From a virus: a DNA stretch of 26,453 nt. A program made the translations under genes and the position numbers. The notes beneath the pieces are model-generated. The model was not told the origin of the DNA. It did no database searches and was given only the letters and a program-made list of their open reading frames with translations. Shown here piece after piece: positions 5,203 to 23,975 of the stretch; within the stretch, counting starts at the first letter, position 1, and each line of letters starts with the position of its first letter. The DNA is taken from positions 1-26,453 of the IMG/VR virus record IMGVR_UViG_3300035698_033610. One strand, 5' to 3'.

Positions 5203-6717
5203 TTGAACCTGGGGACAGAAGAAACTGTGTCTATTTTTGATTTGTTTAGAAAAAATAAAATCCTTGAAAAGCCCAAAGAAACTGGGAGAAAAGAAGTATT
5301 AACCATTAAGGAATTGGTGAAAGAATTGGGCGTGGCTAGGGAAGGAGTAATTTCTTCCTATGAGGCAGAAGAGAACCCAGATGACTTAGGTCCTGAAACT
5401 TATATTGAGATGCAAAAAAACGATGGCGAGGTTCAGGCGATAGTTAGACTATTCTCTCTTCCTATACAATCCACCCCTTTTCACATTTTGCCCTCTCCTG
5501 GAGATAAAGGAGAAAGAGATTTTATAGAAAATGTCTTTACTTCCCCTCCCTATTTAGGCGGTATGACTACTCCGCTTTCTTTTATTATTGCTGATATGAC
5601 TCGGGCTGTTTTTGAGGGATTTCGTTTGTATGAAAAAGTGGCTAGGATTATAGAAGATGGCGAATATAAAGGAAAAGTGGGTTGGAGAAAACTAGCTCCT
5701 CGAGATGCCAGAACCATTGACTTGAAAGCTGATGAAAATGGAGGATTCAAGGGTGCCCATCAGGAGACTACCTTTGGCTCAAGGGCAATCTCGGTGGATT
5801 TACCTCCAGAAAAGTGTATGTTGTTCACTTTCCAAAAAGAGAAGCATTGGCTCTACGGAGAATCTATCCTAAAAACTGCTTTTTATCACTATGATAAAAA
5901 GCATAGATTGTATTACATCGCTCATAAAAAAGCGGAAATTGAAGCTATGGGATTAAAAATCCTGAAAATAAACCAAACCTTAACTTCCACACAGAAAACA
6001 GAAGCTGAAAAAGTAGTAGATACTATAGGAATTAACTCAAGGGTAACCCTTCCGCCTGGCGTAGAGCTGGAGATTGAAAGGGGAGGAGGCGGTTATGACC
6101 CTTTGCCCCTAATAGAACATCACGATTTGATGATGACTCGTTCCGCTTTGATGCAAGCCATGAATCAAGTTAAATATGCCTATCCTTATGGGAAAGGAAC
6201 TGCATCCTCTCAATTCCTAATTCTAGCCATAGAATCCATAATGAAGCAAATGGCAACAACCTTGAACAATTTTGCGATTGCTCCCCTGATTGATTGGAAT
6301 TTTAAAAGCTCGGCATATCCAAAAATTCAATTTGAAAAACTTTCAGACTTATCACAGGTCTTCTTAAGAGATATCTTTGAGAAGATAACTAAATCTAAAG
6401 TCGTCCTACCAGAAGGATTCGTAAATGGGGTTATTGATGAAATTGCGAGAGGTCTGAATCTGAAATGGGTGAGAGAAGATTCTAAGGATGAAACTGAAAA
6501 TCCCGAAGAGAAACCTGAGGGTAAAGTTCAAAATAAAAAAGCTTTCCAATCTTTTGAAAGGGGAAAGATTCAAAAATCTAACGAACTCAAAATTGAAGCA
6601 CCCTCTACTCCCCAAAAAACCAAGGAAAAATTATTAAGAGTTAGGAAAAGTTCTGAGCTAGAAGAAAAATGCTTTAAGTTAGGACAAAAATTTGCTTATG
6701 TCAGATACCAAAACTAA
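5203..6717 (+). CDS. Portal protein, Mu gp29-like (DUF935-type)
   Basis: The product is about 504 residues. It forms the dodecameric ring at the head vertex through which DNA passes. The sequence shows the order of this family: an N-terminal helix-rich part, 'ND-GEVQAIVRLFSLPIQSTPFHI' (residues ~72-95), a conserved Phe-rich step (FEGFRLYEKVARII, WRKLAPRDARTI), a helical wing (LYGESILKTAFYHY) and a C-terminal part ending in a charged tail (~430-504) that may contact scaffold. Length is usual. The start is uncertain: TTG at 5203 is first in frame after a stop, and GTG at 5227 after GGGGACAGAAGAAACT is equally plausible; no ATG lies near. The gene overlaps the zinc-ribbon gene by 20 bp. No terminase gene is adjacent. 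Confidence 0.85.
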   Translation: MNLGTEETVSIFDLFRKNKILEKPKETGRKEVLTIKELVKELGVAREGVISSYEAEENPDDLGPETYIEMQKNDGEVQAIVRLFSLPIQSTPFHILPSPGDKGERDFIENVFTSPPYLGGMTTPLSFIIADMTRAVFEGFRLYEKVARIIEDGEYKGKVGWRKLAPRDARTIDLKADENGGFKGAHQETTFGSRAISVDLPPEKCMLFTFQKEKHWLYGESILKTAFYHYDKKHRLYYIAHKKAEIEAMGLKILKINQTLTSTQKTEAEKVVDTIGINSRVTLPPGVELEIERGGGGYDPLPLIEHHDLMMTRSALMQAMNQVKYAYPYGKGTASSQFLILAIESIMKQMATTLNNFAIAPLIDWNFKSSAYPKIQFEKLSDLSQVFLRDIFEKITKSKVVLPEGFVNGVIDEIARGLNLKWVREDSKDETENPEEKPEGKVQNKKAFQSFERGKIQKSNELKIEAPSTPQKTKEKLLRVRKSSELEEKCFKLGQKFAYVRYQN

Positions 6718-6814
6718 AATTTGTCCTAAATGCGGAAGAAAAAATGAGGAAAGCCGAAAGTATTGTAAATACTGCGGTTGGCCTCTTGAAGTTCAGCAGA
6801 AGAAAGATGGTTAA
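6698..6814 (+). CDS. Small zinc-ribbon protein (38 residues)
   Basis: An ATG inside the end of the portal gene (20-bp overlap) opens a frame MSDTKTKICPKCGRKNEESR ... KYCKYCGWPLEVQQKKDG. The CPKC-x10-CKYC pattern is a classical zinc ribbon. Its stop TAA (6812-6814) overlaps the start of the following gene (ATG 6807-6809) in ATGGTTAA, so translation of the three genes is probably coupled. The tiny size and tight packing support a real gene. The role could be virion assembly or nucleic-acid contact; unknown. Confidence 0.75.
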   Translation: MSDTKTKICPKCGRKNEESRKYCKYCGWPLEVQQKKDG

Positions 6815-9056
6815 AAAGACAGCTAAAAGGTTAGTTCCAACTGATATTCCAGAGTCATTGCGACCTGGAAAAACAATTCCCTTGCCAGGAAGGATTTTAG
6901 TTTCTCCTCAGGGAACTTTGATTTGGGAACGGAAGAAAAAAGCAATAGTTTCTTCAAGGAAAACAGAAAAATATATCGGAATTCCGATTTATCTCATTGA
7001 AGACGACAAAGCACTAGGAATTATTGAATTAAAAAAACCTAGAAAAATTAACTTACAAGAATTCAAAGAGTTAAGAAAATATCACAAGATATCTGATAAG
7101 GAATATAAAAAATGGTGGGCTAGTAAAAAATTTCTCTATTACTATCCGATTGAGCTAATCTCAAAGTTTGAACCCACCAAAGAGATTTTACGACCAACAG
7201 GCTCTCGAGTTTGGTTAGAGTCGGTAACATTTAAAAGTTTGGATATGGTTAATCCTTCGGGGATGACAGATGAAGAACTGATAGAAGTTCACGAGAAACT
7301 TCATAAGATGTGGCGGGAAGCAGCTGGATCTAAAGAAGACATTATGAATTATCATATTCTTATTAGGAAAGAATTGTTGAGCAGGAAGTTAAAGTACGGA
7401 AATATTGATGAATTAGACAAAAAATCAATGGAGTTCCAAGAAAGATTTAGCAAGTCAGGATATAAACTTACTTTCTATGGCACAAAAGGATTAGTTAAAG
7501 AAGAGGGTCTTGGGCATAGATTTCATACCTCTATTCTTTATGAATTTCAGGGAAAGAAACTTTTAGTTGATTATGGGAAAACAAATCAAGGAAATTTGGC
7601 TAAAATCAAACCTGACTATATTTTAGTTTCTCATAGTCATCCTGACAGTATAGGGGGACTTCAGGATTCTTCCATTATTGTTTCAAAGGAAATTGTGAAA
7701 GAAATTCCTGAACTCTACAAAGATTTTAATATTAACGCCAAAGCAGAATACGAGCCTTATAAAACTTTTCGTTTGGGTTCTTTTAAGATAACTCCAATTC
7801 CCGTTTTACACAGTATTCGGGCTAAAATGCATGTTTTTCTGATTCAAATGGGGAATAAAAAAGTTTTGCAGGCTACCGATATTTTATCTTGGCATTCTGG
7901 AGATAGGGAAAAGTATGTGAAAGGGTTAGATCTAGCCATAATTGATGGTTCTTCCTTAACTAAAACTTTAACAAAAGGAAAGTCAGGTGAATCCTATGGG
8001 CATAGTTCAGTAGCTAACCAGCTGAAAAATTGGTATTCTCCTAAAAATGTGAAAAGAGTTATAGTTACCCATTTAGGTAAAGAACCTTTGAGCTTAGGAG
8101 ACAACGAACTCTTGGCAAAAATAAAAGAGATGACAAAAGTTCCAGTTGCTATTGCTACCGATAATACTGTTATCAATTTGGGTGAGAATCTAGCCCCGAT
8201 TTATACCTCTGGGAAAGTGATGGGGAGACCAATTTTCTTGAAGGATGTTTTGCCTTATTTTAAGAACTTTATAATCCAAAAACCGCTTATTTATTTAACT
8301 GGAGGGCTTGTGAACAGGGGTTCAACAAGGAGCGGTGTTGATATCTTAATGCCAAATTGGTTGAGTTCTGACACTAGAAGAATTATTGAGTTCAGAATTA
8401 GCAGAAGTGTTCCTTGGCATGTCAGAAGAAGACTACACTTTGTTTATGATAAATTCTCTACTCCTTTCACCAATGCTATTCCTCTTTATAATTTAACGAT
8501 TTTGAGGAATAAAGATAAGATGATGAGACTATCTGAAATCTTTATGAACCCATTTCCTAATGAGCATGCTTGCCGTCTTCATCCGCCAAAGGATTATGAC
8601 AGATTTTTCAGGCAGAATTGTAAAATCAAGCATAATGGGAAATGTATTCATCTTATTTTTGGAGTTAAGGAAGGAAAATCAGAGATTCAGACAATGAGAT
8701 ATTCAATAGATACATGGACTGTAAGCGAAGCAAGAAGCCATTGTAAATCCAAGAAAGGAATGTTTGAACCAGCCAAGATTGAAAAGAAATTGAACCAAGA
8801 TGCAAATTGGGCAAAAGTAGCATATCGCTATGTTTTATCCCAGCAACAAATGACCTTATGGGTCAAAACTTTGCCATCAGAAAAAGCTAGAAGGGTCAGG
8901 GATGCGATGGAGAACTTCAAGAAACTCCATCCTTTCAAGTTAGAATGGACAGATAATGTTGTTTCTTGGTTGGAACTGAGACCTAATGAAATAAAAGGTC
9001 TGATGATTTCGCAATTAGAAATGAAAAAATCAAGGAAAGTTCCACCCATCTTATAA
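6807..9056 (+). CDS. Multidomain capsid-module protein: PUA/ASCH-like + metallo-beta-lactamase fold + NTase-like + 'EHACR' domain
   Basis: 749 residues from the ATG at 6807. An earlier ATG at 6744 would add 21 residues that merely read through the zinc-ribbon gene in another frame. Residues ~10-135 (PLPGRILVSPQGTLIWERKK, YIGIPIYLIEDDKALGII) look PUA/ASCH-like. Residues ~220-450 are a metallo-beta-lactamase fold: H276-S-H278-P-D280-S281-IGG, H335, D358 and H422. The usual Asp-His pair is Asp-Ser, so one metal ligand is missing. Residues ~490-560 (LTGGLVNRGSTRSGVDILMP) resemble a polymerase-beta-type nucleotidyltransferase motif but lack the second Asp. Residues ~580-650 carry the phage domain PNEHACRLHPPKDYD ... 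TMRYSIDTWTVSEARSHCKS. A head-morphogenesis role is inferred from position between portal and protease. Domain calls 1 and 3 are tentative; the MBL call is firm. Confidence 0.7.
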   Translation: MVKKTAKRLVPTDIPESLRPGKTIPLPGRILVSPQGTLIWERKKKAIVSSRKTEKYIGIPIYLIEDDKALGIIELKKPRKINLQEFKELRKYHKISDKEYKKWWASKKFLYYYPIELISKFEPTKEILRPTGSRVWLESVTFKSLDMVNPSGMTDEELIEVHEKLHKMWREAAGSKEDIMNYHILIRKELLSRKLKYGNIDELDKKSMEFQERFSKSGYKLTFYGTKGLVKEEGLGHRFHTSILYEFQGKKLLVDYGKTNQGNLAKIKPDYILVSHSHPDSIGGLQDSSIIVSKEIVKEIPELYKDFNINAKAEYEPYKTFRLGSFKITPIPVLHSIRAKMHVFLIQMGNKKVLQATDILSWHSGDREKYVKGLDLAIIDGSSLTKTLTKGKSGESYGHSSVANQLKNWYSPKNVKRVIVTHLGKEPLSLGDNELLAKIKEMTKVPVAIATDNTVINLGENLAPIYTSGKVMGRPIFLKDVLPYFKNFIIQKPLIYLTGGLVNRGSTRSGVDILMPNWLSSDTRRIIEFRISRSVPWHVRRRLHFVYDKFSTPFTNAIPLYNLTILRNKDKMMRLSEIFMNPFPNEHACRLHPPKDYDRFFRQNCKIKHNGKCIHLIFGVKEGKSEIQTMRYSIDTWTVSEARSHCKSKKGMFEPAKIEKKLNQDANWAKVAYRYVLSQQQMTLWVKTLPSEKARRVRDAMENFKKLHPFKLEWTDNVVSWLELRPNEIKGLMISQLEMKKSRKVPPIL

Positions 9057-9177
9057 CGACAGTGGTGGAGAGAGGCACGAAATTAAAAAGGTCTTGAGCT
9101 TTTAGAAAGGAGTGATTAAGCAAATTTTTTGCGATGAAAAAGAGTTTATTGCCTTAAACTTGACCTTAACTTATAAT

Positions 9178-11691
9178 ATGCTAAAATACCCACAAATAGA
9201 ATTTTATTTTCCGATTGAACTAAGCTCTAAGAAAGCCGAAAAAGAGAGATTTGTTTTAGAGGGTTTTGCTATTGGGAATGATTTTGACTTACAGAACGAT
9301 ATTGTTTCCGATTCTGCTTTGAGAAAAGCTACAAAAAGATTTAAAGAAAAAGGAAAGGTTTGTTTAAATCACACAAAAAGGATAATCGGAAAAGTTATAG
9401 ATTGCCATTTTACGAAAGGAAAACTCTGGGTAAAGTTAGAGATAACCGAGCCAGAGATTATAGAAAAAATAAAGTCGGGAGAACTCAATTGTCTGTCGGT
9501 AAAAGGACAGTTCAATTATAATGAATTTGAGAGAATCACTCCCCTTAATAAGTTCTTATTTAGAATCGTTAAGGATGCAAGCTTTGAGGAAGTTTCATTA
9601 GTACCTCAAGGTGCGAATCCAGAAGCTAAAGCTATTCAATGGTATGTTCAAAAAGCCTTTGAATTGGCAGAAAATATTATGAACAAAAACTTAAAGGAAG
9701 ACTTCGAAAACTTAAGCGAGATTGAGGAAGAAGAGACTGAAGATATTGAAGAAAGCGAAGAGGAAAAAAAGACTGAAGATACTGAAGAAGAAGAGGAAGA
9801 AGAAAAAAAAGAAGAAGGAGAAACAGAGGGAGACAATACAGAACTAGCCGAAAAAGCTGAAAAAACCGAAGAGGGTGCCGAAGAGGATGCCGAGAAAAAA
9901 ACCGAGGAGAAAGCTAAAGAGGGAATAGAGGAGGAAGCCGAAGAAGAGAAAACAGAATTAGCTGAAGGAGCTTGGAAGTATTGTGTTTGCCCTAAATGTG
10001 GGTATTCTCAAAAACACGAAGTTGGAAAACCTTGTGGAAAGATTAAATGTCCTAAATGTGGAGTTAAATTAGAGGGTAGCAATTCCAATGTACTTGAAAC
10101 TGAAAAGGAATTATATGTTGAAAAATCGGCATATACAAAATGTATGGACAGAGAATTAAAAAAGGGAACTCCATTTAAGGAGGTGGCTAAAAAATGTAGC
10201 AAGGATGCAAAAAGCGAAGGTAAAGTTAAGAAGATTTTACAAGTTGAGAAATCAGCTTATACGGATTGTATGAAAAGTGAAATGAATGGAGGAAAGTCAA
10301 TGGAAGAAGCCACTAAAATCTGTAAAAAGACTGTAGAAAAAGTGGAAAAGAAAAGTAATTATTCCTATGGCTATCCTTATGCTTATCCTTATCGCTATCC
10401 CAAGAGAGTCGAGAAAACTGGCGAAGCTACTAAGGCAATTGAATCAATTGAAAAATTGATTGGTGAAATTACCGATAAAAAAGCTGTTCCTATCCTGAAA
10501 AAAATCAAGGTTATGTTAGACAAAATTGGAACTTATCCTTATCCTTATCCAGAAAAAAAGAATTTGTCCGAAAACGAAAATGAAAAAATAGTTTATCAGA
10601 TAATCAATTCTGGTGATATTGAATTAGGAGATGGTTCAAGGTTTGAGAAAGAATTGTTAAGAACTGGAACTTGGTTTCACGGAGCAGGCAAGAATGGAAT
10701 TCTTGAGATAACGAAAGATGTCCTAAAGAAAATTATTCAGAATTTCAAAGCTAAGGTTATTGATAATGTCTTTGTGCCATTAGGGCATCCTGTTAGCGAT
10801 AGTCCTTCCAAGAATACTGGTGAGGTGGTCAATCTAAAAACTTCTGAAGATGGCGAAAAACTTTTGGGAGAATTTGAGATTAAAGATGAAAGTACTGCTG
10901 AAAAAATCAAGAAAGGATTAATCAAGGGGATTTCAGCTAGTATTGCTGAGAATTATATGAAGAAAGATACTGGTGAACAGGTGGGTCCAACCTTATTCCA
11001 TGCTGCTCTAGTGAGTGAACCATATGTTAAGGGGATGGCGGGTTTTGTTCCTTTATCGGAAGCGACAGAAGATAGTTTGATAATTCCAATCTTGAATATG
11101 GAAGCTCCCTTGACTTTGGAAGAATTAAGTGTTAAGATTGAGAAAGTGGAACAAAAATTAAAATTAAGTGAAACTTCAGAAGAAGAATCTTCAGAGGAAG
11201 AATCTTCAGACGAAATTTCTGAGTCTTCTAAAGTCGGTGGAAAGACCGAAGAGGAAGAGGAAGAAAAGAAAGCTGAAGAAACCGAGACCGAGGAAACTGA
11301 AACTGAAGAGGCTGAGGCTGAGAAAGGAGTTGACTTAGCCGACGCTGAGAAAGAATTCGAAAGACTCTTAAGACAGGGCAAAGTAGTTCCTGTTGAAAGA
11401 GAGCTTCTAGTTTCTTTGATGACTTCGAACCAAGAAATTCAGTTATCAGGTGGAAGAAAAATTCAATCTGGGCAAGCTCTAATTAAATATCTGGACGAAC
11501 AATCTCCTAAATTTTCTTTAAAGGAAGAAGGCACTTCAACGCCAAAAGCCGAAGAAGAGAAGAAGGGAAAGGGAATTCCTAAAGATGTTAATGAGGAACT
11601 TGAAAAGATGGGATTCTCTGACGATCAGGATAAGCAGGCAGTTCACGAAGAATTCAAAAAGGAAAAAGAAGAAGAATTGACTCCATTCTAA
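9178..11691 (+). CDS. Head maturation protease/scaffold with two protease-type domains
   Basis: 837 residues from the ATG at 9178 (a GTG at 9112 in frame abuts AAAGGAG too closely to be favoured). Residues ~15-155 resemble the XkdF/HK97-type prohead protease: VLEGFAIGNDFDLQNDIVS, a His in CLNHTKR, a Ser in LSVKGQFNY and FEEVSLVPQGANPEA. An acidic linker (~165-265, mostly Glu) follows, then a zinc ribbon (CVCPKC/CGKIKCPKC, ~269-297), two related repeats (KSAYTKCMDRE and KSAYTDCMKSE, ~316 and ~358), Tyr-Pro runs (YPYAYPYRYP), a Mu-I-like domain (~483-628: TGTWFHGAGKNGILEITKDV, FVPLGHPVSDSPS, IKGISASI, AALVSEPYVKG) and another acidic tail. Protease-scaffold fusions just before the capsid gene are normal; two different protease folds in one chain are not. 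Confidence 0.75.
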   Translation: MLKYPQIEFYFPIELSSKKAEKERFVLEGFAIGNDFDLQNDIVSDSALRKATKRFKEKGKVCLNHTKRIIGKVIDCHFTKGKLWVKLEITEPEIIEKIKSGELNCLSVKGQFNYNEFERITPLNKFLFRIVKDASFEEVSLVPQGANPEAKAIQWYVQKAFELAENIMNKNLKEDFENLSEIEEEETEDIEESEEEKKTEDTEEEEEEEKKEEGETEGDNTELAEKAEKTEEGAEEDAEKKTEEKAKEGIEEEAEEEKTELAEGAWKYCVCPKCGYSQKHEVGKPCGKIKCPKCGVKLEGSNSNVLETEKELYVEKSAYTKCMDRELKKGTPFKEVAKKCSKDAKSEGKVKKILQVEKSAYTDCMKSEMNGGKSMEEATKICKKTVEKVEKKSNYSYGYPYAYPYRYPKRVEKTGEATKAIESIEKLIGEITDKKAVPILKKIKVMLDKIGTYPYPYPEKKNLSENENEKIVYQIINSGDIELGDGSRFEKELLRTGTWFHGAGKNGILEITKDVLKKIIQNFKAKVIDNVFVPLGHPVSDSPSKNTGEVVNLKTSEDGEKLLGEFEIKDESTAEKIKKGLIKGISASIAENYMKKDTGEQVGPTLFHAALVSEPYVKGMAGFVPLSEATEDSLIIPILNMEAPLTLEELSVKIEKVEQKLKLSETSEEESSEEESSDEISESSKVGGKTEEEEEEKKAEETETEETETEEAEAEKGVDLADAEKEFERLLRQGKVVPVERELLVSLMTSNQEIQLSGGRKIQSGQALIKYLDEQSPKFSLKEEGTSTPKAEEEKKGKGIPKDVNEELEKMGFSDDQDKQAVHEEFKKEKEEELTPF

Positions 11692-13249: not shown

Positions 13250-13286
13250 AAAAAATGTTCAAAAAAGAGATTCCCATAAAATATAA
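13173..13286 (+). CDS. Possible small ORF upstream of methyltransferase (37 residues)
   Basis: The ATG at 13173 lies in the loop side of stem 1 and opens MNLAEWRDGDYEKRLEDWVS followed by PNPLIL. The composition looks protein-like (Trp, Asp, Arg balanced) rather than random AT-rich sequence. It overlaps the start of the methyltransferase gene (13255) in another frame (+1). It could be a short coupled peptide or the displaced N-terminus of the methyltransferase. The overlap with RNA stems is a caution. Confidence 0.35.
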   Translation: MNLAEWRDGDYEKRLEDWVSPNPLILKNVQKRDSHKI

Positions 13287-13806
13287 TAAGGAATATTTCA
13301 GATTAATATCTGATACATATAAGACAACTGCTAGAATCATTAACCAGATTCGGTGGGATTTTGTTAAGGAAATTAAGCCAAAAATAGTCCTAGATTATGG
13401 GGCTGGGGCTTGTTTTCTTTCTAAGTATGCTCCCAAGGGAGTAGTAGTTGATACTTACGATATCGGAGATTTTCCTGTTAAATATACTGGAATCAGGCAT
13501 AAGTCTTATGACCTGATTTTTTTGTGTGATGTTTTAGAGCATATACCTGACTTCCGAGAATTTGATTATCTTTGGGAGAAAGCTGAATATGTTTATATTT
13601 CAATTCCTATTTTACCTAAAGGTCGAGAATTAAAGACTTGGAAACATTTTAAGCCAGGGGAACATTACCATTATTTTACCGAAAGGAGCTTGGATTTATT
13701 TTTTGAAGGTAGAGGGTTTGAGAATATTAAATCTGGTTATCCTGAATGTAAGATACGAAGTGATATTTATAGTGTTCTTTATAAAAGAAGTATAATTTTA
13801 AAGTAG
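13255..13806 (+). CDS. Class I SAM-dependent methyltransferase
   Basis: The product is 183 residues. Motif I is VLDYGAGACFL (residues 45-55), motif II ends VDTYDIGDFP, and the post-motif 'YDLIFLCDVLEHIPD' is the typical methyltransferase-11/25 type segment. A His-rich GEHYHYFTERSLDLFFEGRG follows, as in small methyltransferases that act on sugars or peptides. The N-terminus is short (44 residues before motif I). First gene of the glycan cassette; 4 bp separate it from the kinase gene. It is one of three methyltransferases near a SAM synthetase gene, so a methylated glycan is likely (inference). Substrate unknown. Confidence 0.75.
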   Translation: MFKKEIPIKYNKEYFRLISDTYKTTARIINQIRWDFVKEIKPKIVLDYGAGACFLSKYAPKGVVVDTYDIGDFPVKYTGIRHKSYDLIFLCDVLEHIPDFREFDYLWEKAEYVYISIPILPKGRELKTWKHFKPGEHYHYFTERSLDLFFEGRGFENIKSGYPECKIRSDIYSVLYKRSIILK

Positions 13807-13810
13807 AAAT

Positions 13811-14593
13811 ATGAAAATTGCTTTACTTGGTGATTCTTTTATCGACGAATATATCTTTGGAGAAATAGAAAGAGTTTCTCCAGAAGCTCCAGTTCCTGTT
13901 TTAGATGTAAAACATAAAGAAAGAAGAGGAGGGGGAGCTATTAATGTTGCCAATAACCTTTTTGGATTAGGAGTGGATTTTACTTTATTTACTATTACTT
14001 CAATGAAATTGCCTTATAAAGTTATTACTCCTAAGAGTTGTACTGCTTTGAAAAAAACTAGATATGTGGGAAGCAGAGGTTCAATGAAGCAACAAATCAT
14101 GCGAGTGGATGAACCCAAAGAATATCTAAAGCAAGATTTGAAAAAAATGGTTTATCCTAGCTTTAGTGATTTTGATATTATTGCCTTTATAGATTATAAT
14201 AAGGGGACGATTAAGGAAGGGAAGGCTACTATAGTTGATTCGAAAAAGAAGGATTTGTCTGTTTTTAAAGGAACAGAATATTTAAAAATCAATTTAGGAG
14301 AATGGAAGAATTCAACAAGTGGCGACAATTTTCCTAAAATATTTGTGACTAAGGGGGAGAAAGGAATTGATTATTTTGAGTATGGTCAGCTTAAGTTTAG
14401 CGAACCAACACTATCTCAAGAAATTGTGGATATTTCAGGGGCTGGGGATACAGTTATGGCTACTATGATTTATTGTTTGGTTCATAATATAACCGACCCT
14501 AGAAAAATGATGCAGTTAGCGAATAAAGCTGCGGGAATAGTAATTGGTAAGTTTGGGACAGCCTCTGCAACATTTAAAGAGTTAAATCTATGA
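13811..14593 (+). CDS. hldA: PfkB-family kinase, D-glycero-D-manno-heptose-7-phosphate kinase-like (HldA/HldE N-domain)
   Basis: 260 residues against ~315 for the usual HldE kinase domain. The family would phosphorylate heptose 7-phosphate at C1 in ADP-heptose synthesis. Seen: GDSFIDEYIFGEIERVSPEA (residues 7-26), whose 'GD..lD.Y..G...R.SPEAPVPV' is diagnostic of this branch, the substrate Gly loop RRGGGAINVANN (38-49), and the anion hole/base ISGAGDTV (208-215, catalytic Asp213). The shortening falls in the middle of the domain, not at either end. It overlaps the MetK gene by 4 bp (ATGA). Its partner adenylyltransferase is encoded separately at 19465. Confidence 0.8.
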   Translation: MKIALLGDSFIDEYIFGEIERVSPEAPVPVLDVKHKERRGGGAINVANNLFGLGVDFTLFTITSMKLPYKVITPKSCTALKKTRYVGSRGSMKQQIMRVDEPKEYLKQDLKKMVYPSFSDFDIIAFIDYNKGTIKEGKATIVDSKKKDLSVFKGTEYLKINLGEWKNSTSGDNFPKIFVTKGEKGIDYFEYGQLKFSEPTLSQEIVDISGAGDTVMATMIYCLVHNITDPRKMMQLANKAAGIVIGKFGTASATFKELNL

Positions 14594-15552
14594 TTAAAAT
14601 TGCCGAATTTTGTCGCAAAGGGCACCCTGACCGACTTTCTGATATTATAGCCGATGCCTTACTTGATGAATATTTAAAGCGAGATTCAAATGCACGAGTG
14701 GCTTTGGAGGTATTTGGGTGTCATGGAGTAATTACGATTGGAGGTGAAATTACAACCAATAGTCATGTTGAGATTGCTAAAGTGGTTAGGGATGTTTATC
14801 AAGAAATTGGTTATCAGGATAATGTAGGAATTCATGTTAATATTAAAAAACAATCTCCTGAAATTAAGAAACTAGCCGATGTGGGAGCAGGGGATTCTGG
14901 GATAACTACTGGTTATGCGACAGACGAAACGCCTGAAATGCTACCCAAAGAGGTAGTAATAGCGAAACAAGTTTGTTCTGCCCTTGATGATTTGTCCTAT
15001 TTGAAACCAGATGGCAAGGTTCAAGTAGTTCTAGACGGAAATGAGGTTATTGAGCTAATAGTTTCAGTTCAGGCAGAGAAGAAGTTCCGACCTCAACTTG
15101 AGAAATTTCTAAAATCAAAATATCCTTCTAAAAAATTACACCTAACACTTTTTCAAACTGGTGGTTTTGATGCCGATACTGGGCTGACTGGCAGAAAAAA
15201 TGTATTGTGGTATGGACCTAGAATACCAATTGGTGGTGGTTCATTCGCAGGCAAAGACGCCACCAAGGTGGATAGAAGTGGAGCTTACTGGACAAGATGG
15301 AAAGCGAAGAAAGCTATTGAAGAGTTAGGATATAGCGATTGTCTTTTTGAATCTTCGTATGTGATTGGGAAGAGCGAACCTCTTGCAGTTAGATATTGGG
15401 GGACTAAAGACGGCAAGTCCGTTTATGGCGAGGATTTTGGGGGGATTCCGCTCCGAGTTCTTATTAAAAAATTGGGACTAAAAAAGCCAATCTATAAGCA
15501 GGCAAGTTTATTAGGTCATTTTGGGAATCAAATCTTATCATGGGAAAAATGA
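14590..15552 (+). CDS. metK: S-adenosylmethionine synthetase (MetK-like)
   Basis: 320 residues against ~380-400 for bacterial MetK; the reaction is methionine + ATP to SAM. Key signatures are present in order: GHPDRLSD (11-18, catalytic His12), EVFGCHGVITIGGEITTN (40-57), GAGDSGITTGYATDETPEML (99-118), GLTGRK (198-203), GGGSFAGKDATKVDRSGAY (215-233, catalytic Lys/Asp) and a C-terminal GHFGNQ. The missing ~60 residues are lost from loops between motifs, so the enzyme is compact rather than broken. ATGA coupling to the kinase gene. In a cluster with three methyltransferases it presumably raises SAM supply. Phages more often encode SAM-destroying enzymes, so this is unusual. Confidence 0.85.
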   Translation: MIKIAEFCRKGHPDRLSDIIADALLDEYLKRDSNARVALEVFGCHGVITIGGEITTNSHVEIAKVVRDVYQEIGYQDNVGIHVNIKKQSPEIKKLADVGAGDSGITTGYATDETPEMLPKEVVIAKQVCSALDDLSYLKPDGKVQVVLDGNEVIELIVSVQAEKKFRPQLEKFLKSKYPSKKLHLTLFQTGGFDADTGLTGRKNVLWYGPRIPIGGGSFAGKDATKVDRSGAYWTRWKAKKAIEELGYSDCLFESSYVIGKSEPLAVRYWGTKDGKSVYGEDFGGIPLRVLIKKLGLKKPIYKQASLLGHFGNQILSWEK

Positions 15553-15637
15553 AATACATTTCTGCTCCAGAAAGTTTTATTCTAATCCAAAATATGACTT
15601 GACTTCTGGTTTTATAGGACATATGATGGAAGTATGA
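15549..15637 (+). pseudogene. Possible gene remnant between metK and HNH gene
   Basis: ATGA at the end of metK opens a 17-residue frame (MKYISAPESFILIQNMT) that stops at 15600-15602. In a different frame, 15602-15637 reads TSGFIGHMMEV then stop, resembling the nucleotide-binding turn of SDR proteins (G-x-G-F-I-G). The DNA there (CTTCTGGTTTTATAGGA) matches the intact epimerase start near 16190 (CTTTTGGCTTTATCGGA) at 14 of 17 positions. This may be a decayed fragment left when the HNH gene inserted. Confidence 0.3.
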
Positions 15638-16164
15638 TTACCATAAAATGTCCCTGTGGAAGGACTATTTCCACTTTTCAAAGTAGAATAGGGCGAAAAA
15701 AATATTGCTCTAAAAAATGTTTTTACAGATATAGAAAGAGACCGAGTGGTTTAAAATATAATATCAAGGTTGAAAATAAGGGTTGGTTTCAAAAGGGAAA
15801 AGTTCCCCCTACAGCTTGGAAGAAAGGAGATACTCCTTGGAATAAAAATTTGAAAGGGATTCATTTATCTCCAGAAACCGAATTTAAAAAGGGAGAAAAT
15901 CTTGAGGAGAAAAATAATAAATGGAAAGGGAATGATGTGGGATATGGAGGAATTCATACTTGGATAGAAAGAAAATATGGTAGTGCTAACAAATGTGAAA
16001 ATAGAGAAAATAATATATTAGATTTTAAATGTTCAAATAAATCTGACAATTATAACTGGGCATTGATAAAAGGAAAAAGGTATGAGAGAAAAAGAGAAAA
16101 CTTTGTGATGCTTTGCCGTTCTTGTCATCTCAGATACGATGAAATTAATAAAAAAAAGAGATAA
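15634..16164 (+). CDS. HNH homing-type endonuclease with N-terminal zinc knuckle
   Basis: The product is 176 residues. The N-terminal CPCGRTISTFQSRIGRKKYC ... SKKCF is a four-Cys zinc knuckle seen in free-standing phage HNH enzymes. The middle contains NUMOD-like repeats (KGWFQKGKVPPTAWKKGDTP, WNKNLKGIHLS). The C-terminal HNH part is IHTWIERKYGSANKCENREN ... NYNWALIKGKRYERKRENFV then MLCRSCHLRYDEINKK: beta-beta-alpha-metal type with the CRSCH second pair. The canonical first His-Asn of HNH is replaced by 'NYNWA' as in related phage enzymes. It lies between metK and the epimerase and overlaps the latter by 26 bp, as expected for an inserted selfish gene. Confidence 0.8.
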   Translation: MITIKCPCGRTISTFQSRIGRKKYCSKKCFYRYRKRPSGLKYNIKVENKGWFQKGKVPPTAWKKGDTPWNKNLKGIHLSPETEFKKGENLEEKNNKWKGNDVGYGGIHTWIERKYGSANKCENRENNILDFKCSNKSDNYNWALIKGKRYERKRENFVMLCRSCHLRYDEINKKKR

Positions 16165-16966
16165 AAAAAAGATAATGATAACGGGAGCTTTTGGCTTTAT
16201 CGGAAGAAATCTGGTCAAGGAACTAAAGAAAGACAGTCAAAACTCTCTTGTTCTCTGGGGAAAAGATGTTTGTGAAACGATTGCTATCAAAAATAACTTT
16301 GATGTAATTTATCATTTGGCTGCTAATACTGATACTAGATTTCCCAATGATGTTGAAATGTATCGGAATAATATTCTTGGATTCCTTTCTGTTCTTGATT
16401 TTGCCCTTAAAGGAAAATCCAAACTAATTTATGCTTCATCTGCTTCTCAATTCGGAAATTATAAGAAAACTGCTTATGCCGAATCCAAGATTCTGATAGA
16501 CAGAATAGCTGAACACTTCTTTGATAAACTCCCAATGGTTGGTTTGAGATTTTTTAACGTCTTTGGTTCGGGCGAAAAAGAGAAAGGCAAGATGTCTAGT
16601 ATGGTTACTCAATGGACAGAACAGCTGAAAGCAGAAAAACGCCCTAGAGCTTTCCTAGAGGAGAGAAAAACGAAAAGAGACCATATATATGTCAAAGATG
16701 TGATAAAAGCTCTCAGGGTAGCTGTAGAAGTTCGTAGTGGCATCTATGATGTGGGGTCGGGCAAGCCAGCGACATTTGATAGAGTTTTGAACTTAGTGCA
16801 AAAATATCTAGGAACTGAGAGAAAACCAATTTATATTCATAATCCATATAAGGAACATTACCAAAAAGGAACTAAAGCCAATCTGAATTGGGACTTTGAA
16901 CCTGATTATTCTCTAGAGGAAGGAATTAAGGATTATTTAATTCATAAGAAATATGAAAAAAGTTAA
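16139..16966 (+). CDS. hldD: SDR nucleotide-sugar epimerase, ADP-heptose 6-epimerase-like
   Basis: 275 residues (HldD is ~310). The family converts ADP-D-glycero-D-manno-heptose to the L-glycero form using NADP. Seen: Rossmann GAFGFIG (16-22), the active-site IYASSASQFG (97-106) and Tyr113-x3-Lys117 (YAESK). The substrate part FFNVFGSGEKEKGKMSSMVT followed by KRDHIYVKDV and 'GIYDVGSGKPATFDRV' matches HldD closely ('YFNVYGP.E..KG.M.S ... KRDF.YV.DV ... GIFNLGTG.A.SF'), as does HYQKGTKANL near the end. Start at 16139 (inside the HNH gene) keeps the first beta strand; no better start is visible. Among extended SDRs this branch fits best, but a dTDP/GDP-sugar epimerase is the alternative. Confidence 0.75.
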   Translation: MKLIKKRDKKKIMITGAFGFIGRNLVKELKKDSQNSLVLWGKDVCETIAIKNNFDVIYHLAANTDTRFPNDVEMYRNNILGFLSVLDFALKGKSKLIYASSASQFGNYKKTAYAESKILIDRIAEHFFDKLPMVGLRFFNVFGSGEKEKGKMSSMVTQWTEQLKAEKRPRAFLEERKTKRDHIYVKDVIKALRVAVEVRSGIYDVGSGKPATFDRVLNLVQKYLGTERKPIYIHNPYKEHYQKGTKANLNWDFEPDYSLEEGIKDYLIHKKYEKS

Positions 16967-17579
16967 AAAAGTTTGGGGTTCAGAGTTGTGGATCACAAAT
17001 TCCAAGAAATATTGTGGTAAAAAGTTATTCTTGAAAAGAGGTTATCGCTGTTCCATACACCATCACAAAATTAAAGATGAAACATTCTTCATAATTCGTG
17101 GGAGGGTTCTAATGGAGGTTGGAAAGAAAAAATGGATTATGGAATATGGCGATGTTCAGCATATTGAACCAATGTGCAATCACAGATTTACTGGATTGAC
17201 AGATGCTGAAATCATTGAGTTCTCAACTCAACATCTTGAATCTGATTCTTACCGAAAAACAAAATCCGAGAAATGCAGTTTGCGAAAAGCTTATGATTAT
17301 GATGGGGTAGTTAGTAAAGGAATTAAGCTAGAACCCGAAGCTCCGATTATTACAGGGCGGAGCTTTGAGGAACTTAATAGAATTGATTCCAAAAAGACGA
17401 AAGGGCATGTAATTTACTTTAATCCAGTTGCCTGGGGAGAAAAAACCCTGGAAAAGGAAATTGAGTGGAAGGCAGAAATGATAAAGAAATTGAAAATAGA
17501 AGAATATTACGAGGATGATTGTAGAATAATTGTGACTCTAACAGAAAAGTGTCCAAAGTGTAATATAATCAAGGTATAA
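16953..17579 (+). CDS. Cupin-domain protein with C-terminal extension (sugar isomerase-like)
   Basis: The product is 208 residues. The N-terminal cupin (1-105) has VWGSELWITNSKKYCGKKLF, metal ligands H36-H-H38, E43 and probably H77, and 'FFIIRGRVLMEVGKKKWIMEYGD'. This is the type found with sugar-phosphate isomerases, as in the phosphomannose-isomerase C-domain. The C-terminal ~75 residues (GHVIYFNPVAWGEKTL ... EDDCRIIVTLTEKCPKCNII) are a separate unknown segment with a CPKC pair. It overlaps hldD by 14 bp, so it is coupled to it. In an ADP-heptose setting it might replace the missing GmhA-type isomerase, but that is only inference. Confidence 0.65.
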   Translation: MKKVKKVWGSELWITNSKKYCGKKLFLKRGYRCSIHHHKIKDETFFIIRGRVLMEVGKKKWIMEYGDVQHIEPMCNHRFTGLTDAEIIEFSTQHLESDSYRKTKSEKCSLRKAYDYDGVVSKGIKLEPEAPIITGRSFEELNRIDSKKTKGHVIYFNPVAWGEKTLEKEIEWKAEMIKKLKIEEYYEDDCRIIVTLTEKCPKCNIIKV

Positions 17580-17588
17580 GAACATGAT

Positions 17589-18392
17589 TCAAGAATTAGA
17601 TATCAAGGGAACAGATGGGGAATTCTGATGAAGATGAGTATGACAATTTTTACATAAAGTAATGCCGTTGTCCAAGTCCCATAGAAATTTATATTTCAAA
17701 GCTCTTTTATAAGTTATTTTTCTGTCTGAATATGCATATCTAATTTCGTTGATGATAGAAAAAAAATCTACGAAATGATGGGCGATTAACTTTTTCTTAT
17801 CATTACAGGACTGACAGGTGCTATCTCTTTGAATAATCTTATTTCTCCAGTCTCGATATGATTGACTTCCCCTAATCTTTCTGGCAATTATCTTAACATC
17901 GGTCTGATACGGATGCTGAATTTTATAAGCTGTTCTCGGTAGATGATTCTTCACTCCTTCACTGATATTTTTTTTGTGTTTCTCTGAAATCTTTTTTCCG
18001 AGTTTAGCATTTCTCATTTTTATTCTCGTTTTTTGGCTTACTTTCCTTCCTTTCGGAAGTGAATATCCCTTTTTATTTTTATTCCAAGGGATATGTCCCT
18101 TTTTGAAATTTCCAGAATTTCGATATCCTTTATGACCCTTTTTGAAATAGCCCTTATTAAGTTTACCATTTCTTATAGCTTGGCTATAGCAGTTTTTTGA
18201 ACAATATTTTCCTCTTCCGCTTTCAATCCTTGAAGGACTAATCATAATTTTTCTTTCACAATTCAAACATTTTCTAGTAATTCTTGTTATCTTAGATTTT
18301 CCAAAACATTTTTGAGAACAAAATTTTTGATTAGGGAAACGAGCATTGAATGCTTTATGACAGAATTTACAAGTTTTTTTTAATCCTTTCAT
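17589..18392 (-). CDS. HNH homing endonuclease with NUMOD3-like repeats, antisense to cassette
   Basis: 267 residues from the ATG at 18390-18392 (MKGLKKTCKFC...). An upstream ATG at 18431 would add 13 residues inside an inverted repeat. N-terminal zinc knuckles: CKFCHKAF ... CSQKCF and CLNCERK ... CSKNCY. DNA-binding NUMOD3-type repeats: KKGHKGYRNSGNFKKGHIPW, then KGRKVSQKTRIKMRNAKLGK. The C-terminal HNH: YRDWRNKIIQRDSTCQSCND, IAHHFVDF and LDNGITLCKNCHTHLH, with all key His/Asn/Cys present. It is the only leftward gene in the whole late region and converges on the cupin gene with 9 bp between stops: a mobile insertion. Confidence 0.85.
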   Translation of the reverse strand: MKGLKKTCKFCHKAFNARFPNQKFCSQKCFGKSKITRITRKCLNCERKIMISPSRIESGRGKYCSKNCYSQAIRNGKLNKGYFKKGHKGYRNSGNFKKGHIPWNKNKKGYSLPKGRKVSQKTRIKMRNAKLGKKISEKHKKNISEGVKNHLPRTAYKIQHPYQTDVKIIARKIRGSQSYRDWRNKIIQRDSTCQSCNDKKKLIAHHFVDFFSIINEIRYAYSDRKITYKRALKYKFLWDLDNGITLCKNCHTHLHQNSPSVPLISNS

Positions 18393-18400
18393 AATAAAAG

Positions 18401-18452
18401 CCCCCACAAACTTGGAGGTCGGTGGGGACATAAAATGAAATGACCTCCAAGT
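18401..18452 (-). promoter_or_regulatory. Competing hairpins before the antisense HNH gene
   Basis: Stem A: ACTTGGAGGTC (18410-18420) and GACCTCCAAGT (18442-18452), perfect 11/11 with a 21-nt loop. Stem B: CCCCCAC (18401-18407) with GTGGGG (18422-18427), in minus sense followed by CTTTTATT and then the ATG at 18392. A and B share the loop region and probably exclude each other. Stem B would hide the only G-rich stretch near the start codon, or act as a terminator. This resembles the RNA-hairpin control known for T4 homing endonuclease genes. On the plus strand stem A sits 27 bp before the next gene. Confidence 0.5.
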
Positions 18453-18479
18453 AATTTTATTATAAACAATTAAAAAATT

Positions 18480-19529
18480 ATGTCAAATTATTCAAATATC
18501 AATATTCATTGGGATAAATGGGCAGAGGAACATCCTGCAATAGTTAATAAGAAAAGGAAAATAATCTTGAGACAAGGTCAATCTCCTGGAGATATTTTGA
18601 CTATGAGTAGAGCAATAGCGGACTTGAAAGCAAGTTATCCGAATTATCAAATTGATATTCGTTGTCCCGCAATGGAAGTTTGGAAAAATAGCCCTCATCT
18701 GACTCCCTTAAAAGAAGATGATCCCGAAGTTGAAACTTTTAACATAGGTTATCCTTTAATAAATGAAAGCGGATGGAGAGGATTACATTTTTCTGATGCC
18801 TTCCGCTATGATATGGAGGAAAAACTCGGTGTTCCGATTAAAAAAACTGGAATAAGACCAGAACTTTGGATTTCAGAAGAGGAGAAAAGTTGGTATAATC
18901 AGGTTCATTGCGAATTTGGTTGGGATGGTCCTTATTGGATTCTCAATGCTGGACATAAATCTGACAATGTTCTCAAGCAATATCCAAGATGGCAAGAAGT
19001 GGTTGACTTATTGAATAAGTATTTTCAAGGGAAAGTTAAGGTAGTGACTATCGGGCATCAAGACCATATCCATCCAAAATTGAATGGTGTCCTTGATTTA
19101 GTAGGCAAAACAAATACCAGAGAGCTTATTAGATTAATGTATTGGGCTCACGGTTCGGTTGGTCCTATTAGTTTTCAGTTTGTTATTTCTGCGGCTTTTG
19201 GTCAGCCAGCAGTTGTTGTTGCAGGGAACAAGGAGGGATTGCGTTGGCAAGCTTATAACTGGATTAGATATATCTGTAATACTGGTTGTTTCCCAGAATT
19301 TCAGTGGGATGGATGTTGGAAAGGAGGACAAGGCAAGAAATGCCCTAATTTAGTTGAGACCGATAAAGGTTTAGTTCCTAAATGTTTTGAAATGATTAAA
19401 CCCGAAGAAGTAACTAAAGCTGTAACTGATTATTATGAGGGAGGAAGATTAAAATTACCAAGCGATGAAGAAAATTATAAGTTTCAAAAAGCTTTTAAGC
19501 ATTTCCAAAAAAGCCAAAAGAGAAGGTAA
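18480..19529 (+). CDS. GT9/heptosyltransferase-like glycosyltransferase with Cys cluster
   Basis: The product is 349 residues, GT-B-type. The N-terminal domain begins KIILRQGQSPGDILTMSRAI (27-46), the 'G.GD.l...p.l..lk..yP...I' pattern of heptosyltransferases. The C-terminal domain has WILNAGHKS (~153-161), KVVTIGHQDH and LVGKTNTRELIRLMYWAHGS ... GPISFQFVISAAFGQPAVVV, the GT9 nucleotide-sugar pocket. A Cys group near the end (C266, C270, C279, C288, C302; ICNTGCFPEFQWDGCW) looks metal-binding and recalls the iron finger of autotransporter heptosyltransferases, though the spacing differs. It overlaps the adenylyltransferase gene by 65 bp. The donor is likely ADP-heptose made by its neighbours (inference). 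Confidence 0.75.
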   Translation: MSNYSNINIHWDKWAEEHPAIVNKKRKIILRQGQSPGDILTMSRAIADLKASYPNYQIDIRCPAMEVWKNSPHLTPLKEDDPEVETFNIGYPLINESGWRGLHFSDAFRYDMEEKLGVPIKKTGIRPELWISEEEKSWYNQVHCEFGWDGPYWILNAGHKSDNVLKQYPRWQEVVDLLNKYFQGKVKVVTIGHQDHIHPKLNGVLDLVGKTNTRELIRLMYWAHGSVGPISFQFVISAAFGQPAVVVAGNKEGLRWQAYNWIRYICNTGCFPEFQWDGCWKGGQGKKCPNLVETDKGLVPKCFEMIKPEEVTKAVTDYYEGGRLKLPSDEENYKFQKAFKHFQKSQKRR

Positions 19530-19932
19530 AAAGATAACTTTTACCAATGGCTGTTTTAGGATTGTCACAATTGCTCACGCTAGGTATCTCCAAGAAGCCA
19601 GAAAATATGGCGATATTTTAATAGTTGGTCTTAACAGCGATTCTTCGGCTAGAAAGCTAAAGGGCGATTCAATAGTTCCAGAAAAGCAAAGAGCGGAATT
19701 GCTTTTCCCTTACGCTGATTATATTTACATCTTTTCTGGTTATTCGCCAATGCCAATTTTGAAAAAATTGAAGCCCAACTTCTACATTAAGGGTGGAGAT
19801 TATAAAAAAGAGAGAGCCGATAAATCTGGATGTAGAGAGTTTGTGAAAAGTTATGGAGGCAAGGTGGTCTTGACAAAATTGACCTTGAATGTTTCTACAA
19901 GTAAAATAATAAAAAGGATTAAATCTTCTTAG
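19465..19932 (+). CDS. hldC: ADP-heptose adenylyltransferase-like (HldE C-domain/HldC)
   Basis: 155 residues, the normal length of the adenylyltransferase half of HldE. It would join heptose-1-phosphate to ATP, giving ADP-heptose. Seen: ITFTNGCFRIVTIAHARYLQ (24-43), GDILIVGLNSDSS (49-61), RKLKG, EKQRAELLFPYADYI, 'IKGGDYKKE' (108-116) and the STSKII motif (144-149). The usual HxGH catalytic motif reads T35-I-A-H38: the last His is kept, the first His and the Gly are not. Some HldE-like proteins carry T-P-G-H here, so activity may remain. The long overlap with the preceding GT9 gene implies coupling. Together with the kinase at 13811 this rebuilds HldE as two proteins. Confidence 0.75.
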   Translation: MKKIISFKKLLSISKKAKREGKKITFTNGCFRIVTIAHARYLQEARKYGDILIVGLNSDSSARKLKGDSIVPEKQRAELLFPYADYIYIFSGYSPMPILKKLKPNFYIKGGDYKKERADKSGCREFVKSYGGKVVLTKLTLNVSTSKIIKRIKSS

Positions 19933-19967
19933 CGAGATATTATTAAAAGAAAGAAGAAAATTTCATT

Positions 19968-20795
19968 ATGATAAAAGCAAATCCAAAAATGGGAAAAACT
20001 AAAATTGGCATAATTGGTTCAGAAGGAGTTGTTGGGGGTTCGCTGAAAAGATATTTCCAAAAGCAAAAGAACTTTGAACTCTTTTTTTACGATAAGGGCA
20101 AAAAGATAGGTTCTATAGAAGAGGTTTCTAAAGCTGACTATATCTATGTTTGTGTTCCTACTCCCACAATTAATGATAATGGGGTTGGAAGACATTGTGA
20201 TACTTCAATTGTGAGAGAAGTGATTAAACAAATTCAAGGGGAGAACAAGATAATAATCATTAAATCAACCATAACTCCAAGAACTACCGAAACAATTCAA
20301 GAGGAATTGCCAAATCACAAGATTCTTTTTAATCCAGAATTTCTAACGGCGGAAACTCCTGACCAAGACATAAGTTATCCAGATCGTCAAATTGTAGGAT
20401 TTACAAAAAAGAGTTATGACGTAGCTGGAGAAATAATGCTTCAGCTTCCCCTAGCTCCGTTTGAAATGATAATGCCGGTTACTGAAGCTGAGATGGTGAA
20501 ATATGTCAGTAATTGTTGGCTTTCAACTAAAGTAATATTTGCTAATCAGATATATGAAGTTTGTCAGAAACTTGGAATCGATTACAATAGGGTTAAAGAT
20601 GCTACTGTCGCTGATAAGAGAATATGCAAGTCACATCTTGATATCTTTCATGGCGGGTATCGTGGTTTTGGAGGTTATTGTCTCCCCAAAGATTTAGAAG
20701 CTTATATTGGTTTTGCCAAAACTTTGGGCTTTGAAGATAAATTATTAAAGATTGTGAAAGAAATTAATGATGGACTTATTTCCCAAAATAAATAG
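19968..20795 (+). CDS. UDP-glucose/GDP-mannose dehydrogenase-like, short form
   Basis: 275 residues, or 268 from Met8. The family oxidises a nucleotide-sugar C6 alcohol to the acid with two NAD. Seen: Rossmann KIGIIGSEGVVGGSL (12-26), VCVPTPT (61-67), IIIKSTITPRTTE (96-108), FNPEFL (121-126), Lys178/Asn182 in MVKYVSNCWLSTKVIFAN and the catalytic Cys238 in GGYRGFGGYCLPKDLEA. Thus the NAD and central domains with all catalytic residues are present, but the whole C-terminal UDP-binding domain (~150 residues) is absent; the family is usually 430-450 residues. The stop is followed by a normal gap and the next gene, so this is a short form rather than a recent break. Substrate unclear. Confidence 0.75.
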   Translation: MIKANPKMGKTKIGIIGSEGVVGGSLKRYFQKQKNFELFFYDKGKKIGSIEEVSKADYIYVCVPTPTINDNGVGRHCDTSIVREVIKQIQGENKIIIIKSTITPRTTETIQEELPNHKILFNPEFLTAETPDQDISYPDRQIVGFTKKSYDVAGEIMLQLPLAPFEMIMPVTEAEMVKYVSNCWLSTKVIFANQIYEVCQKLGIDYNRVKDATVADKRICKSHLDIFHGGYRGFGGYCLPKDLEAYIGFAKTLGFEDKLLKIVKEINDGLISQNK

Positions 20796-20826
20796 CAATA
20801 AGATAAATTCTAAATAGTTTATAATT

Positions 20827-21729
20827 ATGGGTTTTTCTAGTTATCAAAAACATTTTTCAGAGGGAGAATTCATTGGAGGAGGACGGGGAGAAAAAAGATT
20901 TCAATTAATTGATTGGAATCTTATTAAAGGACATTCAGTTCTTGATTTGGGCTGTTCTAATGGAATGTTGGCTATCGAGGCAAAGAGGAGAGGAGCAACC
21001 AGAGTTGTTGGAGTGGACAGAGACGATTGGATTTCTTCTGTTCGAGAATCAATTAAAGAACTAAATCTTGATATTGAATTTTGGGAATTGGATATTGAAA
21101 GTCCAGAATTCAAGAATTTCTGTCCCAAATTTGATGTGGTCTTTTTCTGTTCTATGCTTTCTCACATGCATGACCCGAAAGGAATGTTACGTTGGATTGA
21201 TTCTCATACTAAAGAAGTGTTTTACTTTGAAAGTAATCTAGGAGAAAGCCGAAAACCACAGATTGAATCGGTTAAAAAGTTTACTTCATTTGATGTAATT
21301 AAGTTTTTGCACAGAAGCGATGCATCTAATGAGGGAGTGCGATATATGTGGGCTTGCGGAAGAAGAGGAAAAGAAAACAAAATTGAATCTTGGAAAGATG
21401 TTCCCATAACCTTTATTCCTATAGATAGAATTCGAGGACCTCTTGAAGATAAGTGTAGCCAGGTTCTGCCGAATGAGCGAATTCAAGTGTTAAAAAAGAA
21501 TATTCAAGAGAATGGGCTTATGTCTCCTCTCATTGTGAAAAAATCGATTAGAATAGATTTTGATTATGATGGAATTGAGGGAGGAAAGAGATATTGTATT
21601 TTAAGAGAGCTTGGATATAAAGATGTTCCATGCAAAATCATACCCAATATTTCAAGTAAGCAATTGGTAAAAGAAGACAATAAAAATTTTCAATTAGAGC
21701 AACCAGAAGAAAATGTCAAAAAAACTTAA
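20827..21729 (+). CDS. SAM methyltransferase fused to ParB-like domain
   Basis: The product is 300 residues. N-terminal class I methyltransferase (~30-185): motif I VLDLGCSNGMLA (38-49), acidic loop VGVDRDDW (61-68), FWELDI, 'DVVFFCSMLSHMHDP' (103-117). C-terminal ParB/sulfiredoxin-type domain (~192-275): VPITFIPIDRIRG, then RIQVLKKNIQENGLMSPLIV, and GIEGGKRYCILRELGYKDVP, which corresponds to the 'G.HRy.A...LG...vPc' core. ParB domains bind CTP/ATP or act as nucleases or kinases in other proteins. The fusion may couple methyl transfer to nucleotide binding, but the target is unknown. It overlaps the next gene by 17 bp. Confidence 0.75.
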   Translation: MGFSSYQKHFSEGEFIGGGRGEKRFQLIDWNLIKGHSVLDLGCSNGMLAIEAKRRGATRVVGVDRDDWISSVRESIKELNLDIEFWELDIESPEFKNFCPKFDVVFFCSMLSHMHDPKGMLRWIDSHTKEVFYFESNLGESRKPQIESVKKFTSFDVIKFLHRSDASNEGVRYMWACGRRGKENKIESWKDVPITFIPIDRIRGPLEDKCSQVLPNERIQVLKKNIQENGLMSPLIVKKSIRIDFDYDGIEGGKRYCILRELGYKDVPCKIIPNISSKQLVKEDNKNFQLEQPEENVKKT

Positions 21730-22645: not shown

Positions 22646-22663
22646 ATTTAACTTACAACAAAT

Positions 22664-23958: not shown

Positions 23959-23975
23959 TCTAAGAAATTTAGAAT

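Follow-up and report, generated by a model that had tools for sequence, protein, structure and literature searches.

The window, by which we mean the whole 26,453-nucleotide stretch of viral DNA analysed here (IMG/VR record IMGVR_UViG_3300035698_033610, a 26-kb fragment), contains among its head genes a fusion gene that can be traced, by comparison with its relatives, to a protein joining a DNA ligase to 3'-phosphoesterases, of which it is a reduced version. As far as sequence can establish it, the full forms in related viruses carry a YhfI/RNase Z-like metallo-beta-lactamase (MBL), an MNT-like nucleotidyltransferase (NTase), an ATP-dependent DNA ligase and LigD-type 3'-phosphoesterases on one polypeptide. 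It seems to us reasonably probable that this is a head-module protein of the polyvalent, "carrier plus cargo" type, that DNA ends are processed and sealed by its full forms, and that the window copy is a derivative which has been maintained but has lost most of its catalysis. The relatives suggest that a DNA-repair machine is made as part of the head-building module in these viruses, and the family behind the window gene is more interesting than the window copy.

The fusion gene and its immediate surroundings comprise the following features, all given in window coordinates.

5203..6717 (+): Mu-type portal protein, directly upstream of the fusion ORF (PF06074, Portal_Mu, 5e-31; phrog_113 portal, 5e-36)
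6807..9056 (+): fusion ORF, 749 aa, without internal stops (770 aa if started at the in-frame ATG at 6744)
6831..7235 (+): N-part, residues 9-143, PUA/ASCH-like by secondary structure (alignment of 10 loci)
7236..7451 (+): helical segment, residues 144-215, common to all carrier genes
7452..8186 (+): MBL domain, residues 216-460 (PF12706, phrog_392, 1zkp, YhfI)
7647..7649 (+): Ser281 codon AGT, replacing the last His of HxHxDH (CAT in 5/5 relatives)
8238..8531 (+): MNT-like NTase domain, residues 478-575 (Foldseek; HI0073, Z 7.2)
8334..8336 (+): Gly510 codon GGT, replacing the first catalytic Asp of the D-x-D pair (Asp in 9/9 other sequences)
8547..8780 (+): PNEHACRL phage domain (52-61% to L021, L025, L028 and L017)
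8790..9053 (+): C-part, residues 662-749 (58% over 92 residues to L002 1641-1732)
9071..9160 (+): phosphoesterase 2 remnant (last 30 residues), non-coding, with in-frame stops (50% over 30 residues to L010)
9112..11691 (+): ORF of the XkdF-type head maturation protease, downstream of the fusion ORF (phrog_976, 1e-16; PF14550)

Because the proteins of the relatives begin at the point corresponding to window residue 9, translation probably starts at 6807 or at a codon close to it; a start at 6744 is possible and unsupported. The protease ORF opens at 9112, and from the reading frames and the alignment with relatives its likely start is the ATG at 9178; genes for a cement protein and then a gpT-like major capsid protein follow it. 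A chance match as the explanation of the fusion ORF is ruled out by Pfam (Lactamase_B_2, 1.5e-9), by fold (Z 17.9) and by homologues (68-74% identity to five relatives). The protease itself (9178-11691) has two protease-like halves lying far apart, zinc-ribbon-like CxxC motifs, and a stretch of GYPYPY-like repeats, rich in Tyr and Pro, which the relatives have in longer form. On the 3' side of the capsid gene there is a large island (13255-24914) of ADP-heptose and glycan synthesis look-alike genes, namely an RfaE-like kinase and cytidylyltransferase, a heptosyltransferase, an epimerase, a MetK-like gene and glycosyltransferases, and a similar island is found in the relatives. Two look-alikes of HNH-type homing endonucleases with N-terminal zinc-ribbon segments, at 15634-16164 (+) and 17589-18431 (-), were recognised by eye among the glycan genes.

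The predicted fold of the N-part is rich in beta structure. It aligned with the ASCH profile in hhalign over 90 columns (E 0.0056, score 23.1, against a highest score of 17.3 in 20 column shuffles), a weak signal with a probability of 6.6%, and an ASCH match was absent from the Pfam scan of the window protein. Profiles of the N-part and of the NTase gave no matches among PDB sequences. The MBL domain matches Lactamase_B_2 above the curated cut-off as well as phrog_392, a metal-dependent hydrolase, and 1zkp was also matched in a profile search; none of the MBL subfamily models reached its cut-off for the window protein. A model of the whole protein, of modest confidence (mean pLDDT 59, the N-part and MBL being better than the remainder), aligned over its MBL part with 1zkp (Z 17.9, rmsd 3.2, 209 residues) and YhfI (Z 17.5), and the next matches were RNase J, PqqB, PhnP, a cAMP-binding MBL and Apyc1. 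In this predicted structure the alpha-beta/beta-alpha fold of the MBL superfamily is confirmed. A beta-CASP (SNM1/Artemis-type) nuclease was considered and seems unlikely, as the RNase J rows cover the MBL part of the model only and the family is without a beta-CASP-sized insert; RAD51C, the sole hit when the whole protein was compared with the PDB by phmmer (E 0.5-0.6), was taken as chance. For the NTase, a second model (mean pLDDT 77) placed MNT antitoxins at Foldseek ranks 1-3, with probabilities of 0.95-0.99 but E 0.02-0.05. Its structural alignments included HI0073 (the best), MNT, MntA and Pol beta/mu, with NTases filling most of the top rows, and these matches suggest a minimal Pol-beta/MNT fold for residues 478-575.

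The PNEHACRL domain occupies the place of everything from the ligase through phosphoesterase 1 in the relatives, and the same module occurs in Roseobacter and Synechococcus phages, close to the N-terminus of their protease-capsid polyproteins. The counterpart of the C-part is the link between phosphoesterases 1 and 2. A preliminary description, made from the window sequence alone, had read an MBL fold, an NTase-like domain and a C-terminal phage domain between portal and protease, in an order that it could not match to any described capsid-associated protein. Portal_Mu upstream and the XkdF-type protease downstream bear out the location; the structure prediction and fold search that it proposed recovered the MBL fold, and an MNT-like fold among the matches of the NTase part; the phage module recurs in other phage proteins; and no description of such a fusion was found in the literature.

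Five relatives are 68-74% identical to the window protein over residues 1-578, with the gene at the same place. One was found with the window protein, more with the protein of that relative, and one in a bacterial MAG; two of the records, L007 and L009, are nearly identical. In all five, the N-part, MBL and NTase run on into an ATP-dependent DNA ligase (PF01068, 2e-14), the sole ligase detected in those records. The four complete proteins have 1,563-2,241 aa, two of them with inteins, and share the order N-part, helical segment, MBL, NTase, ATP-dependent DNA ligase, further domain, LigD-type 3'-phosphoesterase 1, C-part and phosphoesterase 2. The phosphoesterase is recognised by TIGR02777 (1e-6) and an HxxxxxHxDxR-like motif. 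KxDG ligases adenylate and seal DNA, and LigD phosphoesterases clean 3' ends. In the fifth relative (L056, the one in the bacterial MAG) the contig ends inside an apparent intein placed after the ligase active site. The intein-like inserts are at three different sites: two lie at separate positions in phosphoesterase 1, in L006 (8001-13655) and L010 (8004-14726), and the third is just after the KFDG motif of the ligase in L056 (991-3402). The L006 intein gave a weak LAGLIDADG match, and the other two were recognised by eye, as was an additional Dam-like DNA methylase domain between the ligase and phosphoesterase 1 of L010. Ku (PF02735) was absent from 20 records, mostly fragments. Among 379 genomes of the phylum of the L056 MAG, the carrier was found in that MAG alone, and none was found in a plasmid search. 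Neither Pfam search nor tblastn found a ligase elsewhere in the window, and since the record is a fragment, one could lie elsewhere in the genome of the window virus.

A portal scan yielded 22 loci, in which the slot after the portal is modular; a carrier scan added no new viruses, and the NTase-ligase alignment in viral contigs and the portal alignment in genome contigs were too loose as scans. The carrier is joined to an AAA+ ATPase in L021 and L025-L028, to an S78-like protease in L017 and L018, and to a degraded MBL in L024, while PNEHACRL occurs alone or with a phosphoesterase in L029-L031 and L035. One carrier is thus found with several cargos, always between portal and protease. In L021 (2695-4902), L025 (10515-12791) and L028 (4196-6505) it is the carrier together with PNEHACRL that is fused to the AAA+ ATPase in this slot, and a DEDD-type exonuclease gene is in the same slot after the portal in L032 (3464-4018) and L034 (2366-2896). 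In archaeal (ANME) viruses an NTase-ligase(-phosphoesterase) directly follows the portal, as seen in ANMV-1, in one MAG each of Methanophagales and Methanosarcinales, and in the viral contig L052. L052 and L058 have the N-part as the C-terminus of the portal polypeptide itself (portal by PHROG, 1e-15 and 2e-14), and the window N-part is 42% identical to the portal C-terminus of L052; of all the observations, this fusion points most clearly to the portal as the place where the carrier part acts. The ligase gene of L052 (8149-13541) is split: one ORF encodes the NTase together with the first half of the ligase, a second encodes the remaining ligase and both phosphoesterases, and about 2.1 kb of other ORFs lie between them.

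The full forms could instead be ordinary intracellular DNA-repair enzymes that are made with the late head genes and never enter the virion, the window copy simply decaying. Phage Corndog provides a precedent, as its enzymes encoded between portal and protease were not found in virions (PMC4351075), so gene location alone proves nothing about presence in the virion; the inteins and methylase within the fusions also show a tolerance for non-structural cargo. We regard this explanation as unlikely, because the N-part belongs to the portal polypeptide in two archaeal lineages, PNEHACRL is found in protease-capsid polyproteins, and the carrier is kept with unrelated cargos, even after cargo loss. 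Under the carrier-plus-cargo reading that we prefer, the carrier part would direct the protein to the portal or deliver it into the prohead, and we infer localisation in the virion and injection. The cargo of the full forms would act on the viral DNA during packaging or soon after ejection, trimming, filling and sealing its ends or nicks, and would amount to a Ku-less, NHEJ-like set of end-processing enzymes. In the window virus the catalytic job would have been given up and the protein kept for a carrier or structural role, its MBL perhaps with a residual or binding function.

The residues to which the preliminary description had drawn attention in the MBL (H276, H278, D280, S281, H335, D358 and H422) are all at the named positions, and the NTase-like motif GGLVNRGSTRSGVDIL and PNEHACRL are both present in the ORF. 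The metal motif reads HSHPDS in the window and H[SA]HPDH in all five close relatives, and AGT for CAT at residue 281 is a two-base change. The NTase pair is G-V-D in the window and D-x-D in nine other sequences (GD[IL]D in 5/5 close relatives; the four archaeal-virus-type NTases in the alignment also retain D-x-D), so the single Asp was correctly seen, the missing carboxylate being the first Asp. What had to be given up of an interpretation that is right in part, in which the MBL fold, NTase-like domain, phage domain and undescribed order all stand, is the implication that Ser281 and the single Asp are features of the family: in the homologue alignment both are unique to the window. The descent from a fusion of DNA ligase and 3'-phosphoesterase was beyond what the window sequence alone could show. 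A pseudoenzyme across the whole family is ruled out, the catalytic sites of the relatives being intact.

MBL phosphodiesterases use HxHxDH, and Pol-beta NTases require two or three carboxylates. The window has lost the HxHxDH of RNase Z, YhfI and Apyc1, with the further ligands H335, D358 and H422 present, and it departs from the hG[GS]...DxD pattern of active Pol-beta NTases. Judged by these residues, the window NTase is almost surely dead and its MBL appears impaired. The MBL may nonetheless not be dead, as six of its seven metal-site residues are still there and with Ser281 in place each site region keeps at least three potential zinc ligands; class B1 metallo-beta-lactamases function without the second His, so some zinc binding may be retained. 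Of 231 MBL and NTase columns that are otherwise invariant, 24 are changed in the window (9.8% in the MBL and 11.5% in the NTase, compared with 2-7% and 0-4% in the relatives), and the two catalytic changes show no statistical enrichment among them, so their weight rests on the function of the residues.

These partly preserved sites bear on a further explanation, that the protein serves counter-defence, its MBL being a cyclic-nucleotide phosphodiesterase of the YhfI/Apyc1 type that remains functional in the window with a changed zinc site, and its NTase being, or having been, an MNT-type protein-modifying enzyme, so that the target is not DNA ends. YhfI and its B. anthracis homologue are the closest solved folds, a cAMP-binding MBL and Apyc1 were matched as well, and both YhfI and Apyc1 cleave cyclic nucleotides (PMC9117128). 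The proximity of the NTase to MNT antitoxins and the six remaining metal-site residues also fit. However, Apyc1 relies on the HxHxDH that the window has lost, no PADLOC or Apyc1-type family matches were obtained, and in the relatives the MBL is joined to a ligase and a 3'-phosphoesterase, which points to DNA. We therefore consider a role in counter-defence quite improbable.

With the carrier-plus-cargo reading retained, the reduction of the window gene can be followed at its 3' end. The window protein is without the ligase and both phosphoesterases, and ends where phosphoesterase 2 begins in the relatives. Immediately beyond, the remnant at 9071-9160 aligns with L010 at 26.9 bits, compared with a maximum of 18.9 among 394 pieces of 160 bases drawn at random from the window record, and on this basis the window gene is the reduced form and the full form is ancestral. 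What remains of the protein has evolved under purifying selection (dN/dS of about 0.06-0.14 for comparisons in which dS was computable, many dS values being saturated); pairwise ratios so near saturation can neither date the losses nor tell whether constraint fell after the catalytic losses. In the carrier gene of L024 (1878-3173) the MBL is 36% identical and the whole HxHxDH stretch is missing, an independent second loss of the metal site. The "structural relic" that the preliminary description offered as one option comes close to the evidence. The reverse history, with the window form ancestral and the ligase forms later gains, would accord with the simpler forms having carrier and PNEHACRL in other viruses, but we hold it to be very improbable: it is already contradicted by the phosphoesterase 2 remnant behind the stop codon, the NTase-ligase is common to distant archaeal viruses, and the catalytic residues are intact in all other branches. 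Scarcely credible is an assembly artefact in which two related viruses were joined into a chimera at the PNEHACRL domain, for although the exact window architecture is found in a single metagenomic record, H281S takes two nucleotide substitutions, the reading frame runs uninterrupted through 750 codons, and other viruses also have PNEHACRL behind the same carrier.

A bolder proposal, which we put forward tentatively and regard as doubtful, is that a lineage of tailed viruses of bacteria and archaea mounts on the portal a Ku-independent, all-in-one end-joining machine (MBL hydrolase, NTase, ligase and 3'-phosphoesterases) acting on genome ends in the virion or on entry, the window protein being its pseudoenzyme carrier. 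Should the full forms indeed work at the portal, the virions would bring a DNA-break repair system of their own into the cell, and the circularisation or mending of genomes by tailed viruses of uncultured archaea and bacteria would become testable. The window also illustrates how multi-enzyme proteins may decay, with active sites and cargo lost and the carrier staying, and the comparison ties together the portal-adjacent "ligase" of ANMV-1, the portal fusions of ANME viruses and the Mu-portal viruses as one modular slot.

Several known systems share parts of this architecture. The MBL resembles the YhfI, RNase Z, PhnP and Apyc1 hydrolases in fold (Z 14.8-17.9), whereas the window has HxHxDS; for the anti-Pycsar protein Apyc1 the fold match has Z 14.9, and its family was not listed in the Pfam scan. 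MNT and HI0073 minimal nucleotidyltransferases are the best fold matches of the NTase part, but the window has lost the first catalytic Asp. The full relatives share with LigD of bacterial NHEJ a ligase and a LigD-type 3'-phosphoesterase, both absent from the window protein, and differ in that neither a primase-type polymerase domain nor Ku was matched, an MBL and an MNT-like NTase being present instead, so that they would function like a LigD minus its polymerase; phage Corndog, a precedent for end joining by a phage, seems to recircularise through NHEJ using a Ku of its own (PMC4351075). The ANMV-1 "ATP-dependent DNA ligase" (AJP62006.1) has an NTase-ligase-phosphoesterase directly after the portal and is about 32% identical to the full form, although it is annotated as a ligase only and the N-part and MBL are absent. 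The polyvalent proteins (PMC5512222) are likewise multi-domain proteins with unrelated catalytic domains and variable cargo, encoded among portal-terminase head genes. Disparate domains are combined in the window (MBL, NTase and PNEHACRL) and in the relatives (up to ligase, methylase and phosphoesterases), the gene lies with the portal-terminase virion genes in the window and all full relatives, and the Dam-like methylase of L010 and the minimal NTase domains are cargo in common. The text of PMC5512222 does not name an MBL, the ligases it mentions are RNA ligases, and it does not describe a DNA ligase or LigD phosphoesterase. Unlike the proteins described there, ours show no MuF domain, and they are carried by archaeal viruses, whereas archaea were noted as poor in polyvalent proteins (Iyer et al. 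2017, PMC5512222). By analogy, it is nevertheless a polyvalent protein that the window protein and its full forms would most resemble in the way they work.
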